A DNA stretch of 14,059 nucleotides from Irineochytrium annulatum (Eukaryota > Chytridiomycota > Chytridiomycetes > Chytridiales > Chytridiaceae). The stretch covers positions 1 to 14,059 of the forward strand of contig JADGJL010000773.1 of NCBI GenBank assembly GCA_027600665.1, written 5' to 3'. The notes under the pieces were generated by a model, which was not told the DNA's origin, did no database searches, and saw nothing but the letters and a program-made list of their open reading frames with translations. Both the position numbers and the translations under genes were made by a program. The number at the start of each line of letters is the position of its first letter. Position 1 is the stretch's first letter. Below, in pieces: positions 1-12,766 of the stretch.

Positions 1-2955
1 GGGAACAGCAACGCGCCACAGATCGAGAGGCTGGAGCGACGGTGGCGGGTTTTCTTCCTCCAGACGTTCAAGGACGTCGACCGGGAGCGGGAATACTCGC
101 GGTGGTATTGGAAGCGGAACAAGCACGCGTACGAGCGCGGGCTGGTCTACGTGCTGGGCGCCTCGGTGCTCTACTACCTGCAGTACTTCATCGTGAGCCC
201 AATACAGGCGAACAGCCTATGGAGTTTGAGGTCGACGAACGTCGACGCGACGTGTGGGTGCTACAGCTTTTGCGGGACATCTTACAGCTACCTGCCGGAC
301 GTGTTGTTTCTCGTCATCGGAAACGTCGTGCCCATATGTGGGATCTTGCTCGTCGTGCACTACGCGCCTATTCAGCTCATGTCCCGGTATATTCACCTGC
401 TGTCTGCGTTCCTGGCCATGTGCCTCACTTGCATCAACTTTGGTATGATCACCGTTTTCCCTTTCCGAGCCTTAATGATACATCTGATCGTAAAATCTAG
501 TTATCCGTTTTCGCGTCGTGGATCCCGAGGGCTCCGTCTGGTTCCGGTCCTTGATCTCCCTCAACATCCTATTCATCCCCATGCTTCTGAAGATGTCACC
601 GGACATGACACTCCTCAGCGCCGTAATTACAATCTCTGTCTACATCGCCCTCTTTCACGACCAAATCTTCGGCGGCGTGTCCTCGGACTCGTACGACGAC
701 GGCGGCTGGCTCGCGATCCTCGTGGCGCAGATCGCCATTCTGGCCTACATTGCCTGCTGCGCGGGCACCAGCGTCTTCCTCATGTCCCAGTACGAGTCTA
801 ATGAGAGGAAGGCTTTCATGGTCAACCTGGGCCTGATAAGGAACAACGACAAGCTGAGACATCAGCTTAACCATCTTCAGAGGGAGTTTACTCATGAGAT
901 CAACGACCTCGAGTCGCCGCTGGAGAAGGCCATATTAACGCTTAAAAGCGTTCTCGCGAACCCGAACCTGGACATGGTGACGCACGCGCAGATCGAGGCC
1001 ACGGTCGGGTGGCTCAGCGCGAGCGAGAACATCTTCACCCCGATGTTTGACCAGAGGCTGGAGAATGATGACCACATGAGTTTGGACGATGAGCAGGAGG
1101 TGTGTCTCGTTGTAAAATCTTATCCGATGTGCCTGTTGGTTAACATCGCGTTCTTCACCGCATTAGAAATGGTTGCTCGATCTCCTCCCCGCCCAGCAAC
1201 GCAAGGATGAGATCAAGAAGCGCCGCAACCGCATGGAATCCGACTCCTCCGCCATCATGTCGATCCCCGGCGCCGTTGACGACCGGCCCATAACCGGCCC
1301 GCGGTCCTCAAGCGCGCGTCGCCTCTCTAGCGTCACCTCCCCCGCCCGTCAGCTCCTCCAGCAGCCATCCCTCACCACCACGGGAGACTCCTCCCTCAAC
1401 GTGAACGCCGGCGCGGGCCCCATCCGCATCACCGGGACGAGCTACAAGAGCGAGAGCTACAGCTCCATCTCGACCCTCAAGCTGACGCGCGACTACGCGG
1501 CCGAGGCGACGGCCGAGGCCGCCATTGAGGGCGCGGCTGCGGCCTTCGCGGTTGTCGCCGACGAACTTAAGCACTACCGCTCGGGGTCGACGTCTGTAGC
1601 GCGGTCAGAGTTCGGGGTCGACGTTCCCGCCGTGAAGCACTCGTTTAAAGCCACGAATGAGGACGGCATCGTGATCGAGGAAGGCGTGACGAACGGTTCG
1701 AGGGAGAGCTTTGTGTACCGCGGGTCCGGGGATGGGGTGCTTGCGGGAGGCGGCGGCAGGAGGTTGCCGTCGTTGCATCAAGTGGATTCGAGCAACCAGC
1801 TAATGTCGGAGCGGGATAAGACGCATATACAGGAGCTGCTAGAGGAGGTCGGGAGATGGAATTGGAGGATCTTTGAGTTCGAGGCCATTGCGCCGAAGCC
1901 GCTTTACACGCTGGGGCTGTACATGTTTTTTAAGGCGGGGTTGGTGGGGAGGTTGGGACTGCCGGTGGATAAATTGAGGCACTTCTTGTTGAAAGTGGAG
2001 GCTGGTTATCACCCGGAAGTCCCTTGTAAGTTCGTTTTGCAACGCATTTGTCGTTTCGGAACACATTTGTAAATGCTCGGTTGCAGATCATAACGCGACA
2101 CACGCGTGCGATGTACTTCACGCAACGAATTATTTTGTCAGCAGCGCTGCATTAAACGGTCGGCTGACAGACCTGGAAGTGCTTGCGGGATATCTAGCGG
2201 CCATCATTCATGGTAACTCTCTGGACATGAACGAAACATGCCCTAACATTCACTTACGTTCCAAGATTACGACCACCCCGGCTTTAACAACCAATACCTC
2301 ATCGCGACGCGCCACTCAAAAGCGATCTTTTACAACGACCGCTCCGTCCTCGAAAACCACCACCTCGCGGCTACTTGGAACCTTCTCTGCAAGGACGACT
2401 CAAATTTCCTTATCAACCTCTCTCGCGACGACTACCGGCAGGTCCGGGACCAGTGCGTCGACATGGTTCTCGCGACGGACTTGAGCAACCACTTTATCAC
2501 GCTCTCGGCCTTCAAGAACAAGGTGCTCGTCGCGGGGACGTTCGACCTTGGGAACCGGGACGACCGGAGCCTGTTTTGGAAGATCGTGATCAAGTCCGCA
2601 GATGTCAGCAACCTGACAAAAGAATGGGGGATTTATGATGGGTGGCTCACGAGGCTAGTGGAGGAGTGGTTCAGACAAGGGGACGATGAGAAAAGACTCG
2701 GCGTCCCAGTTTCGCCGTTCATGGACAGGGACACTGCGCAAATTCCCAGCTCACAAATTGGGTTCATGGATTTCATCTGCTTCCCAAGTGAGTTTCGCGC
2801 GTCGGCGTTTGAGCATCTTCTAACAAACTTCGATGGTAGTGTATGAGGCTTTCACGAGGGTGTTACAAGATGGCGAGATTTTGGACAGCTTGCTGCGGAA
2901 TCGGGAAACGTTGGTGGAAATGAAAGAGAGAGAGAAGAGGGTCGTTCTCAAGTAG
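1..2955 (+). CDS. Six-TM membrane-anchored class I cyclic-nucleotide phosphodiesterase (5' partial)
   Basis: Hydrolyses cAMP and/or cGMP to the 5'-monophosphate; specificity cannot be read here. Model: exons 1-442, 501-1099, 1167-2025, 2087-2212, 2266-2787, 2840-2955, TAG stop at 2953; introns of 58, 67, 61, 53 and 52 bp. The start lies left of the window; 887 residues are visible (numbered from base 1). Residues about 20-45 form a charged lead-in (FKDVDREREY) followed by six hydrophobic spans, about 49-69, 98-120, 127-148, 162-180, 186-203 and 222-248, then a helical segment likely to coil (about 249-290). A Ser-rich linker contains RRLSS at 398-402. The PDE domain (about 570-860) has HNATH at 635-639, HDYDHPG at 675-681, SADVSN at 786-791 and SSQIGF at 837-842. 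This gives the metal ligands H639, H675, D676 and D788, and the purine-clamp Q839 and F842, all expected of an active class I PDE. The lead-in plus six TMs resembles the membrane module of many class III adenylyl cyclases (from memory of the family). The gene is convergent with the TTLL gene. Confidence 0.88.
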
Positions 2956-3165: not shown

Positions 3166-6100
3166 CTACCTCCTCCCCATTAATGCCGGGACAGGCTGAA
3201 CCCAAGGCGCCCAAGGCGACATCCTCCCCTCGTCTACCCCAACCGCGAGCGGGCTGGCGACTTTCGTCGCCGCCCTCGATACAGCTACGACCGCCCTCTC
3301 CTCTTTCTTCACATGTGCTTCTTTCCTCCTCCTCCCGCTCCAGTCCGGCTTACCCCAAGACGGGAATAGCGGCGGCACGACCGCCCCGTCCATCTCCCTC
3401 TCCTCCCCAAGCTCGCTGTAGAATTCGGCAACATTGGACCGCCCGGACACCGACCCCCGCCCGTCATCGTACCCGTACGCGGCGCCATCGTCCACCATCG
3501 TCATTATACCCCCCGCGTCCAATACTCCCACAGTCCTCGCCTCGCCCGCGGAATCGATGTACCTCAGCGACGCCTCCGGCTGCACCTGGAGCGCCGGATA
3601 CTCCGCGCCACCTTGCTGGCCGCCCATCATCACAACATCCATCATCACCTCCCTCCTCGACCTTCTCATGGTCGAAAACGCGTGGTGGATCGACCGCAGC
3701 CTTGCGGCGCCCCTGGCAATTTCGGCTACCGTGCCCGGGTCCGGCCCACGGAAGGTCCCTTCCTCGTTGAAGTTGATCTTGACGGGCTTGGTCACCAGGA
3801 GGCCGTCGAATTGGGGCAACGCGGGCGCCTGCAGGGGCTCCCTCGCCGCGACGGAGTTGCGCGAGGATGTTGCAAGGAGGAAGTTCGGGACACGACGGGC
3901 GGCGGCATAGCTAGGGTGAACCATCCCAAAGGCCGTCGGCGGGGGCGTGGCGTGAGGCTCAAGCTTAGGGGTCGGGATGGTGGCTGCACTGGACCCGCTG
4001 TACTCGTAGGCCTTCATATCATGAATCGCCGGATGGAAAGTCGGAGCCCGTCGATCGGTCGGGACAGCCGCGGGGAGGGAGCTTTGCGATGTAGATGCGG
4101 AAGTGGACGAGGCCTTTGATGTTCGCTTCGGTTGCGAAGGCTTGGCTATTGAGGGTCTTGCGTAACCGCCCCTCGCGACGCGGGATGGTGACGAAAGGCT
4201 TGTCCGATTGGATGCGGGGGGTGTTGCGGTGATGGAAGATACCGGCACATTGCTGAAGGCGGGGTCTAAGCAGTGCTCGAGCTGGTATCTCGTGAGCGGC
4301 GACCCTCGGAGGATAGTCACCGCCATTGCAGGATCCTCACTGTGCCTTAACACCCATTGCTGCAGAAGTCGGTCGTAGTAGGAGATGCTTCCGAAAAGTT
4401 GGTTGAGATAGGAGATGTTGCCTACTACCGGAAACACGCATTCGAAGTTGCCCCGGCGGCTTAACTGATCAAGGAGCATGGTTAGGTAATGAAGGCTTCT
4501 GATTACTTAACCTCGTCTTCAGTCTCCTTCAGGATCTTAATGTCATCCCCCGACAGCTCTCCAAGGCAGTCGTAGTCCTTGTTCCGATAGTGTTCTCTGT
4601 GCTTCGATCTCTCCTTGTTTGACAATCCAGGGCGCTTCCAGTTATCTCTGAGGTGATTGCGGTGAATACGTAGAAAGAAAAGGAATTGAACTTACTTGTA
4701 CTTCTTGATTCGCGACGCCTCGAGGTCCTTAATTCTGATGCCGACGAGATTTAAGAGGTCTGTGACCATCCTCGACTTCAGGTTGTAATCCATGTCGCAA
4801 GACGCCTTCAAAGACGGGGAAATGTTGACCTCCATCAACCAGGGCTTCAAATCGCTGTCAAGCAGAACATCAAAGCCGAACAATTCGTAGCAACTCGCAC
4901 TGTTTGGCACGCACAACCGTACGCCGCTTGCATTGACGGTGTTGGCGCTGATGATGGTCTTAACGACTAGGCATTTGATGGACTCCATCACCCTGCCAAA
5001 ATCGATTGACCGCAAGGCGAGGTATTCCCGTAAGGTCTCCAAATCCCACTTAGAGCTGCTCGTGTTAAATTTCCCTGACAAGGGCTCGTTCGCCTGAAAC
5101 CTCGGCTTCCCGCCCTTGTTCTTCTTTGAGACGCTGTAGTTTGTCAAGTGAGCGAACCGGTTTTTGACGTTATGGGTATTGGTGCTGCTCGAGTATCTAG
5201 TGTGCGTCTTTAATATCCCTAGGTGGACCAACAACATAACTTACTGATCCGCAGCAAACCGAACAAGGCCCTCCCGAAAAAGATATATTCTGAGCGGGTC
5301 GAAGCTGGTGACGGCGACGTACAGGCGCAGGTCAAACTTTTTACCGTCTATCAGGTATGGGTTCGAAATGTATCTAGAAACGACAACTTCCCGCTTCCGC
5401 GGTACGTCTGTCCACTTCGCCGCAAGCCGAATCCCTAACCCCCGTGCCGATGCCGGCGGCTTCACAATCCAGAGCGCCGAAGTGTTGAACTGGTTCTTCA
5501 AGTTCCGTCGCTGATGCGGCAAGAGGAAGGTTTGAGGCAGGAAGTCCACAGTCTGGATTCAATGGACACCATTAGCTGATATGCTTCCTTAAAAGTCGAA
5601 CTTTGAAAGCAACTCACATGTGCACCTGCCCTCTCCCTCATCCGCGAGACATTGACGTACATCCTATCCTTCCGACCGATCTCAAACGACATGGGAAAGT
5701 GGTTGACCTTTTGCCATGGCTGGACAAGCTTAAAGCGCTCGACGGGGAAGTGCTTCCCCCAGTATCCGATCCACTTCTTCCCACCCTTCACCAGTTTAAA
5801 TCCAGCCCTCCTCAAAGCATCTGGATGAAGGGCTGGTTAGAAAGGTCGACGAGAGAAAGGAGAAAATAACACTTACTTCGAACCACTTTGGGCGTGAATT
5901 TACATATCTTCCAGTACAGAACTTTTGAGAACTCTTTCGGCAGATTTCGAACTGTGAACTGTTGAGCTTCCCGTCCGCATCAATGGACCAAAGGCACTCA
6001 CCAGCTTCATTCTCAGGCGGGAAGTACAACACTGCGTCTCCGTCCTCAAACAAACTCGGTGTAATTGGTGACTTGACATAGACGTCAGGCTGCACGAACG

Positions 6101-7169: not shown

Positions 7170-8506
7170 ATGGCCCCAGCTATGAACGGGAGCGATTGTT
7201 ACGTCGTGAGTACCTTGTTGCCTTCTTCTTTTCGGTGTCCCGATGCTTGGAGCTGACGCACGAATAAGGCTCAAATTATGAATTGCGACAACATACCCTT
7301 TATCGTCCCCTTCACGCGATCCTTCGCTATCCTGTGCTGGATCTCGGCCGCGACGGGCCTCGTGGCGGTCGTGACCAGAGCAATCAGGCGGAGGCGGGAG
7401 GCGACAGTTCAAGGCGCGGTTAGTGGCAGGAGCGCCATCCTCAGCCAGTTCGAGCTCTCGATGGTGCTTATGACGGCCGACAGCGCCATGACTGCTCTGC
7501 AGCTAACCATCTCGGCTTTTGTAAACGTGACGTCCGTGGTGTTCAAGTGAGTGAGACGGGGTTCACGGCAACTTCTAAGCCTTGCGGGTACAGCTCCATT
7601 CTTAGCGCCCGCGCCTTCAGCATTGTGGCCATATTTATTATGCATATAAGCATGGTGAGCTAGTGAATTTGCCTGCTGTGAGAAGTAATCGTCGCACTGA
7701 GCAGCTGCTTAAAGCGAACCCGCACCCGACAGCCCGCGTTAACAACTTCAGAATTTTGTGGTTGCGCCTGCTTGTCATTCCCTTGCTTCTGCTCTGCGCC
7801 GCGCACATTTACGCGGGCTATCAGATTGACAGGGTGCATTACGACGACCGGTCCGACAACGGTGTGAAGATGTTGGGCATTGCCAACACCGTCGACGTGG
7901 TCATATGGTTTGCCATCTGCATCTGGCTTCTCGCCGTCATCCACTTCCCTAAAAAGGAGCTTTACGAGCGATTGCGCGACATCGCCAACGATAAGCCATT
8001 GTTCGACGCACAGCTGGGTACCGCAACCGGGACAAGGCTTCTGCCTGTGATGAAGCTCGAATCTACGCCTGAACCTTTTCTATGCAAGAGGATATCACAA
8101 TGCGTTACCGTTACGGAGGAGCGGCTTGCGGCGTCCCTGAAGGGCGCCATCTGGACGCTAACGGTCATGTGGTGGACCGTCCTTGCCTACCTAGTGTACT
8201 CGGCGCTGTTCGCAATCGCGACCTTAACGATTGGGTACCCGCAATGGATCTACTTTTGCCTAGTCGCGTTTATGTACGCGTGAGTAGGCGCATTGTCTCA
8301 ACGACCGTTATTCCCTCGCTCTCTTTGTCATTTAAATGCTCATACTTCTTGCACTCGCTCTCAGGTTCCCCGGCTTGGCGCCATTTGCAGTATTTGCTGC
8401 TGTCCTTCACCGCGACTGGCTAAAGCGAGATGTAAGCGGAAGGAACAGTGATGGCGCGATCACGCAATCAATTTACTCTCGGGTACGAAATCAATCCAGG
8501 TGTTAG
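7170..8506 (+). CDS. Putative seven-transmembrane protein, tandem paralogue 1
   Basis: Family not recognised. Five exons: 7170-7205, 7269-7546, 7594-7654, 7705-8279, 8365-8506 (TAG at 8504); introns of 63, 47, 50 and 85 bp in phases 0, 2, 0, 2; 363 residues. Hydrophobic spans at about 24-48, 75-97, 105-125, 142-164, 184-206, 274-300 and 305-333 give seven TM segments. A basic run (RRRRE, 52-56) follows TM1, and N-glycosylation sequons occur before TM1 (NGS at 6-8) and after TM2 (NVT at 98-100). These point to N-outside, C-inside topology. The TM5-TM6 loop is long (about 65 residues) and the TM6-TM7 turn is short (TIGYPQW). This order matches a GPCR-like layout, but no known GPCR motif is visible. 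Exon boundaries are supported by the neighbouring paralogue, which has the same intron phases and an exon 3 of the same 61 bases. It could instead be a transporter-like or structural membrane protein. Confidence 0.75.
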
Positions 8507-8865: not shown

Positions 8866-10094
8866 ATGGCCCCCGCTATGAACTCCAGCAGCGACTGCTA
8901 CTTCGTAGGCGTCTTGCCAGTTGGCCGAAAGGCTCCTCGACTAACCGTCCTGCCTCTTAGGCTCAAATCCTTGACTGTGAGGAAGAATTAAACGGCCTCG
9001 TCCCCTTCACGCAAACGCTTGCGGTGATGTGCTGGTTTACTACCGCGGCCGGCCTGGCTGCCGTGGTATCCGGCGTAGTGCAGCGTCGGAGGCGGAGGGA
9101 CCGCGGGGAGCGTGCCGGCAGCCTCCTCACCGCTTTCGAGACGTCGATGGCGCTCCTGACCGCCAACTCCGCTCTGTCGGCGCTCGGCCTCACCGTTACT
9201 TCGTTTGTGAACGTCACGTCGCTCGTATTTCAGTAAGAGGACATATCAATTTTCGGTTGCTTGACATCTGGTTAGCATTATTTCCAGCGTGCGCTGCGTG
9301 ACTGTTCTTGCTGCCTACAATGTTCACGTCAGCATGGTAAAAACCGAGCGATCCTTATTACATGAAGCTGACGACTAGTCGCATCAGCTCTTTAAAGCGA
9401 ATCCACACCCTTCGGAGCGGACCAACGAGAGGTGGACGCTCTACCGTCGCATCACGGCCGCACCTATCCTTCTTGGTGCTCTCGCCGATGTGTATGAAGG
9501 TTACCTCTCTGACCGGTATCACTACGATGACCCGACAAAAGCTATGGAGTTATCGTTGGCGCTCGCAACAGTCGTGGACATGATTCTATGGATTGCGGGC
9601 TGTACGGGACTTCTCGTCGTCGTGGTTGTGGCCAGAAACGGTCTTTGCGAGCGCCTACGTGAGGTGACCACCAACGCGGTGTTTGACGGCTTGCCATCAG
9701 ATCGGACACGGACTACAAAGTCATATCAAAGTGTGTTGGCGGAGGACGCCGGCGATGCAGCCCATTACATAAGCGCCACGGACGAAAGGCTACTTGCGTC
9801 CCTTAACGGGGCCATCTACACATTAACCGTCCTCGTGTACGCGATCTCGGTCGTTATCCTGTACTCAGCGTTCTTCGCGGTCGCCATTATGACCATTGGG
9901 TATCCAGCGTGGATATACTTCTCTGTCGTTGGCTTTATTTATGCGTGAGTCACCAAGTCTGCCTCTTAATCTAACACTTTAGTAACTCAAGTCTCCCCGG
10001 CATCGTACCGCTGGTAGTTTTCATTGCTTTACTTCGCCGGGATTATTTGAGGCGAGCACTCCGCGACCAGAATGCGCACACAACCAACCTCTAG
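8866..10094 (+). CDS. Putative seven-transmembrane protein, tandem paralogue 2
   Basis: Paralogue of the gene at 7170-8506; family not recognised. Five exons: 8866-8904, 8961-9232, 9276-9336, 9388-9944, 9983-10094 (TAG at 10092); introns of 56, 43, 51 and 38 bp in phases 0, 2, 0, 2; 346 residues. Both proteins start MAPAMN and share an exon 2 opening AQI, then KANPHP (127-132), the DRxHYDD motif after TM4, ERLR after TM5, a TxERLxASLxGAI block before TM6 and TIGYPxWIYF before TM7. Seven hydrophobic spans fall in the same places, with an NSS sequon near the N terminus, RRRRR after TM1 and a basic C-terminal tail. The TM5-TM6 loop differs most between the copies, which may reflect different partners (inference). 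For exon 3 I chose the TTAG acceptor at 9275 over the later CCAG because it gives an exon equal in length and aligned to that of paralogue 1. The last intron, 38 bp, is very short but has CTAAC and TTTAG. Confidence 0.75.
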
Positions 10095-12088: not shown

Positions 12089-12766
12089 TGTTAATCTGTC
12101 AGGGCATGAAACAGAATGAGCGACCCACACCACCGTCTGATGACCTGCAACACGAGTTCTCGAACAATCGTCTCCAATCTCCTAAGCACTTCAACATCAA
12201 GGGACGGTTTGTTTGAGACGAGATAGAAAAAGGAACGGTCAACCTTGTGTACATATCTACTGAGGACATGGTTGCCGACATTTTCACGAAGGCATTACCA
12301 CAAGCATTACACACCCAAGTTCACTTCCCTACTAGGGATGCGGAGTCTTGCCAATTTTGAAGGCACAAGCTTAATGACTCCTTCTCGCAACATACAAGTA
12401 CGAAGGCGTCTTGGAGTGGGACTGATTTCTGGTCTCCATACTATGAAACTTACTAGGACCAATCCTTCGCCCTACGCTGCCATCACATCACGCACACGTC
12501 ATGTAGTCGCTTTGAGCTAGTCTGTTAATGAACCAGCTGTGTGTTTAAGCTTGAAACCGTTATCACTACTAGTTGATGGTGACAAATGATTTAGGAATCA
12601 TGATCCAAAATCATCGCGGACTACTACATGGGGGAGGATATTCAATGGCGGCAAGAAAGGCGCTCCGTACATGAAACTCACTACACTCACTGGACTCTAC
12701 TATGGCTCACACCTAGTGTCCTAGGCCACATGGTTGCCTTACCACTGTTTGCGTCGTCCACATTGC
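12089..12766 (+). pseudogene. Degraded Ty1/copia-type pol 3' end (RNase H) and trailing sequence
   Basis: The frame around 12181-12300 encodes the end of a copia RNase H: PKHFNIKGRF, then EKGTVNLVYISTEDM and VADIFTKALP. The last block is the hallmark of Ty1/copia polyproteins. A TGA at 12214-12216 sits where the family normally has an Arg-type residue, consistent with a CGA-to-TGA change. After TKALP (about 12300) the expected continuation moves to another frame (KFTSLLGM, from about 12318), implying a one-base indel near 12298-12304. The left side is cut by the LTR-like unit ending at 12088; reverse transcriptase and integrase are absent. About 400 bases of untranslated element DNA seem to follow, up to the polypurine tract. 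The remnant is not functional. Confidence 0.75.

Follow-up and report, generated by a model that had tools for sequence, protein, structure and literature searches.

A six-span membrane module with a predicted adenylyl cyclase-like fold on a class I phosphodiesterase of the chytrid Irineochytrium annulatum

Whether the membrane input of a receptor cyclase can also serve an enzyme that degrades a cyclic nucleotide is the question raised by a phosphodiesterase (PDE) gene of the chytrid Irineochytrium annulatum. The stretch of DNA analyzed, referred to as the window, is the 14,059-nucleotide span C845:1-14059 (contig JADGJL010000773.1) of a 26.9-Mb assembly, and base 1 of the contig falls inside the gene. 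The gene probably encodes a membrane receptor-phosphodiesterase of chytrids, in which a six-span module of predicted cyclase fold is followed by a helix of ∼60 residues, a linker of PDE type and a class I PDE domain. The domain order, the intact catalytic motifs and the fold of homologs are supported by sequence or by structure prediction.

Gene model and catalytic domain

Six exons, bounded by GT/AG junctions and in consistent phase, yield a single frame of 887 residues with a stop codon at its end. The parts of the gene are as follows.

1..442, plus strand: exon 1, N-terminal end missing; lead-in helix and spans 1-3, span 3 finishing in exon 2
67..96, plus strand: lead-in motif FxDxxxExxY (FKDVDREREY), preceding span 1
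250..279, plus strand: cysteine-bearing loop between spans 1 and 2 (CGCYSFC), placed by alignment and presumably extracellular on the topology assumed
501..1099, plus strand: exon 2; completes span 3 and encodes spans 4-6, the continuous helix (as patterned in homolog models) and most of the SPLEK linker
911..1211, plus strand: PDE-type SPLEK linker, crossing the exon 2/3 junction
1167..2025, plus strand: exon 3; end of the linker, a poorly conserved stretch and the beginning of the PDE4-aligning region
2025..2871, plus strand: PDEase_I match, exons 3-6
2087..2212, plus strand: exon 4
2089..2112, plus strand: motif HNATHACD
2209..2282, plus strand: motif HDYDHPG
2266..2787, plus strand: exon 5
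2598..2612, plus strand: motif ADVSN
2748..2765, plus strand: motif SSQIGF
2840..2955, plus strand: exon 6, including the stop codon

Exon 3 opens with the end of the conserved linker (KWLLDLLPAQQ) and continues into the PDE4-aligning region from residue 567. The initial annotation had proposed recovering the upstream contig to find the true N terminus, and a candidate for it was located. Comparison of the genome with the first 100 residues of P0005, one of the database homologs described below, returned a single place, C1040:72-227 on the minus strand (E 0.0014, 57% identity). There, in C1040:1-233 (minus strand), an ATG begins 77 codons (MERGNSLSHYISP...) that are cut off by the contig start within a glycine repeat. 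This segment at the contig edge is probably the exon in which the coding sequence of the window gene begins. That C1040 adjoins C845 is likely but unproven, as the ends of the two contigs share no overlap of 8 or more bases.

The catalytic region matched PF00233 over residues 634-860 (E 7.2e-79, 265.3 bits against a cut-off of 24.8), which places it among the class I PDEs, and its best match in the PDB was PDE4. The motifs HNATHACD, HDYDHPG, ADVSN and SSQIGF are all present and align with PDE4; they presumably represent the metal-binding His and Asp residues and the purine-pocket Gln and Phe of class I enzymes. The description of an intact class I PDE given in the initial annotation is thereby borne out. 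At E 1 or better, PF00233 was the only match of the window protein, and no class III cyclase catalytic domain was found. An Asn as in ADVSN is common among PDE families selective for cyclic AMP (cAMP). On this basis cAMP is the likelier substrate, and its cleavage is predicted.

The membrane module, its linker and its relatives

Inspection of the N-terminal part reveals six hydrophobic spans (residues 47-65, 101-119, 131-149, 159-177, 181-199 and 218-236) in frame with the PDE and preceded by the charged lead-in FKDVDREREY (residues 23-32). In models of homologs, span 6 continues as a helix of ∼60 residues. The six spans, FxDxxxE-type lead-in and helix described earlier are thus all present. 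Across 10 aligned modules the F, E and Y of the lead-in are invariant and the D is kept in at least 90%; in P0003, which lies outside this alignment, the Y is replaced by F. Cysteines occur in the span 1-2 loop of nine of the 10 modules, the exception being the paralog on C508, which suggests a disulfide-braced outer surface.

The span 6 helix leads into the conserved SPLEK linker. A profile of this linker matched three paralogs in the genome (that on C508 at E 9.5e-11) and two further PDE loci, on C22 (E 6e-5) and C3 (E 2.4e-4), whereas the best E value against 20 cyclase loci was only 0.22. The joint therefore appears to sit in the helix, with cyclase-type input before it and PDE-type coupling after it. 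Of the earlier view that the helical segment belongs to a cyclase front end, the helix itself is retained, but the linker behind it is not cyclase-type. The loci on C22 (L025) and C3 (L027) carry another multi-span membrane part on the same type of linker. These two parts match each other at 98.8% in profile comparison by hhalign; against cyclase cassettes and the 10-row module set they score near zero, and against a 6-row set 12.5%.

When the genome was searched with residues 1-347, three loci were found besides the query itself, on C546 (E 6.5e-20), C321 (E 4.8e-11) and C508 (E 0.25), each preceding a PF00233 match on its own strand. The C508 locus, weak in this search, joins the family by profile (98.5-99.1%, spans alone) and by its linker. 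As judged from sequence, at least four PDEs of one chytrid genome would thus bear this type of membrane input.

Three database searches yielded 11 proteins (P0001-P0011), two from Irineochytrium, eight from six further named chytrid species (Blyttiomyces sp. JEL0837, B. helicus, Dinochytrium kinnereticum, Cladochytrium tenue, Phlyctochytrium planicorne and P. bullatum) and one more. The profile search scored only the 7995 candidates with the most words in common and returned named chytrid proteins and one unnamed protein; candidate length was bounded in all three database searches, so that long cyclases might escape. A precomputed PDE domain is present in eight of the 11 proteins and a precomputed cyclase domain in none. 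The three without a PDE domain are P0005, which stops soon after the linker, P0006, with 218 residues, and P0011, which stops at the PDE start; some spans are absent from the gene models of P0002, P0003, P0004, P0006 and P0011. Two subfamilies can be distinguished, A (the window protein and P0001-P0006) and B (P0007-P0011). Within the latter, the I. annulatum protein P0007 corresponds at 94% over the whole query to the paralog on C546, the model of which keeps a stretch missing from the annotation, and P0008, also annotated in I. annulatum, had no counterpart in searches of this assembly. Five of the 11 proteins are named cAMP-specific phosphodiesterase 4A, a name that hides the membrane part.

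A mechanism comprising a dimer, signalling through the helices and an effect on hydrolysis can be inferred. The protein would be a homodimer, its two six-span modules paired in the manner of the halves of a membrane adenylyl cyclase. On receipt of a lipid-like or extracellular signal, the packing of these modules would shift, the helices and linker would relay this shift to the PDE dimer, and breakdown of the cyclic nucleotide, probably cAMP, beneath the membrane would change. The membrane part would in this way control PDE activity and do for breakdown what receptor cyclases do for synthesis. Precedents for the mechanism are the rhodopsin phosphodiesterase described below, with its helix continuing from the last span into a linker, and the control of cyclases by lipids acting via their membrane domains (PMC11606603).

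The same architecture would be expected if the six spans had the cyclase fold but only anchored a constitutively active PDE at the membrane and received no signal. The module has no known ligand. Plasmodium and Toxoplasma have multi-span PDEs that associate with membranes, and most Toxoplasma PDEs lack a defined regulatory domain (PMC5746546, PMC7720076). The PDE loci on C22 and C3 likewise carry a multi-span part, which implies that anchoring may be a common need. However, the lead-in, cysteine loop, post-span helix and linker are conserved in two subfamilies, which would go beyond the needs of an anchor, for which one span would suffice. A purely anchoring role is accordingly considered unlikely, albeit deserving of serious attention.

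Resemblance to cyclase membrane domains

The cyclase-type reading of the module rests principally on predicted structure. In fold comparison of two homolog models, nucleotide-cyclase membrane domains ranked first and only cyclases stood above a gap in the scores; the predicted models thus have the fold of solved cyclase membrane domains. Profile searching placed the membrane part in no unrelated family. Together, these results support the interpretation of a cyclase-style membrane part put forward in the initial annotation. When the model of P0001 was submitted to Foldseek, PDEs dominated the matches; this model is poor beyond the membrane part (mean pLDDT 49), and no domain arrangement was therefore taken from it.

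Comparison at the sequence level was less uniform. Alignment of the module with cyclase cassettes by hhalign gave 93.7-95.5%, but the value drops on removal of single rows and block shuffles reach 94.1%. With 6 rows, the PDB profile search placed AC8 third (E 3); with 10 rows AC8 was not among the matches below E 10, so this match was rejected as evidence on its own. A hidden Markov model of the module, run against open reading frames of 20 of the 21 PF00211-matching contigs (all but C231), gave best E values of 1.3 and 0.64. Cyclases of the same genome do carry multi-span cassettes with a lead-in similar to that of the module.

Multi-span cassettes were seen at the cyclase loci L034, L037, L045 and L046 (C613, C133, C651 and C169). 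On C169 a set of spans precedes each of two cyclase domains, as in animal membrane adenylyl cyclases.

It could be argued that the resemblance reflects convergence of a compact six-helix bundle and that the module is a chytrid membrane domain of separate ancestry. Several observations weigh in this direction. No Pfam family passed its cut-off over the membrane part of the window protein, the three paralogs, P0001, P0003, P0005, P0006 or one cyclase exon, the sub-threshold matches being Vma12 (E 4.1) in the C508 paralog and DUF3810 (E 0.018) and SPW (E 0.33) in P0006. The sequence signal hangs on few rows, with high block shuffles and hhalign controls as high as 12.5%, and a common arrangement lets helical bundles score high in fold comparison. 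Set against this, both models list cyclases alone above the gap, the match takes in the lead-in region and the post-span helix with the elements in the same order, and an ABC (ATP-binding cassette) transporter control in the profile comparison was near zero. Convergence is therefore regarded as rather improbable.

A further possibility is that the module and the membrane cassettes of cyclases are pairing partners within one membrane, which would dock the PDE on a cyclase as a local unit of synthesis and breakdown. Cyclase cassettes pair with one another in known structures, and, as noted, the same genome has cyclases with such cassettes and a similar lead-in. An interaction role of cyclase membrane domains is discussed in PMC12414865. 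The PDE module is, however, far diverged from the cyclase cassettes and a homodimer is the simpler arrangement, which leaves docking with a small probability. Finally, that two adjacent genes or an artefact of the gene model were joined, with the membrane part and PDE as separate products, is very improbable: P0005 (451 residues) has no annotated PDE domain and its sequence diverges beyond DDEQE, a point corresponding to the exon 2/3 junction, but three paralogs and individual database proteins show the same arrangement, and exon 3 holds both the linker end and the beginning of the PDE4-like region.

Neighboring sequence, known systems and significance

The PDE gene adjoins a tubulin-tyrosine-ligase family gene at 4692-5558 on the minus strand (PF03133, two exons, E 1.7e-30 and 1.3e-38). 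Two similar multi-span membrane proteins lie in tandem on the plus strand (7257-8283 and 8961-9948); in the three open reading frames scanned, no Pfam family exceeded its cut-off and no match to the PDE module was found. The last 3.5 kb of the window look repeat-rich, and three minus-strand open reading frames there had no Pfam match. At ∼12250-12300 on the plus strand, STEDMVADIFTKALP resembles by eye the end of a Copia-type retrotransposon polyprotein.

Membrane adenylyl cyclases (AC5, AC8 and AC9) share with the homolog models the predicted membrane fold and the long helix out of span 6. By contrast, the window protein has a PDE output in place of a class III cyclase, one cassette per chain, and a PDE-type linker where the cyclases have the cyclase-transducing element (PMC9552081). 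ImcA (8wcn), a diguanylate cyclase with a six-span domain, differs in being bacterial and in its GGDEF output, which makes c-di-GMP. No openly accessible literature on MASE7 was found. Like the window protein, the choanoflagellate rhodopsin phosphodiesterase (Rh-PDE) has a multi-span input on a class I PDE, and the helix leaving its last span runs on into a linker for which a dimeric coiled coil has been modelled (PMC7644710). Its input is an eight-span rhodopsin with retinal, whereas the window protein has six spans and no rhodopsin match by hmmscan, in agreement with the earlier statement that the membrane parts differ. The Bac_rhodopsin profile had no match in this genome and likewise none in the control genomes. 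Multi-span PDEs of Plasmodium and Toxoplasma, compared by description only, likewise combine class I PDEs with membrane spans, of which the Plasmodium enzymes have up to six, in a different lineage (PMC5746546, PMC7720076). An adenylyl cyclase of Marchantia, a basal plant, unites cyclase and PDE parts in one protein, but it is the cyclase catalytic domain, not a cyclase-type membrane domain, that is joined to the PDE (PMC5159850).

Multi-span PDEs in apicomplexans and cyclase membrane domains are thus already known; excerpts of the openly licensed literature contained no description of a PDE bearing a cyclase-type membrane domain. The membrane domains account for ∼35% of adenylyl cyclase coding sequence, and their role has been termed a blind spot (PMC12414865). 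The case for a receptor role draws mainly on engineered chimeras and on the effects of lipids (PMC4821796, PMC11606603). A wider proposal, judged somewhat less likely than not, treats the membrane domain of adenylyl cyclases as a portable receptor that evolution has transferred from enzymes making a messenger to enzymes degrading it. In chytrids this type of input would be found both on cyclases and, within a single genome, on four or more PDEs, and cyclase and PDE cassettes may even pair into a push-pull unit. If this is true, the fact that the domain was naturally moved onto a PDE and conserved there would argue, on evolutionary grounds, that it carries a signal and is more than an anchor. 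The chytrid enzyme family would provide a natural test of the membrane domain as a portable receptor, in which the same lipids could be tried on a different, easily assayed enzyme, and would open the function of cyclase membrane domains to direct testing. It may also offer candidate parts for receptors that lower cyclic nucleotides, as a complement to Rh-PDE.
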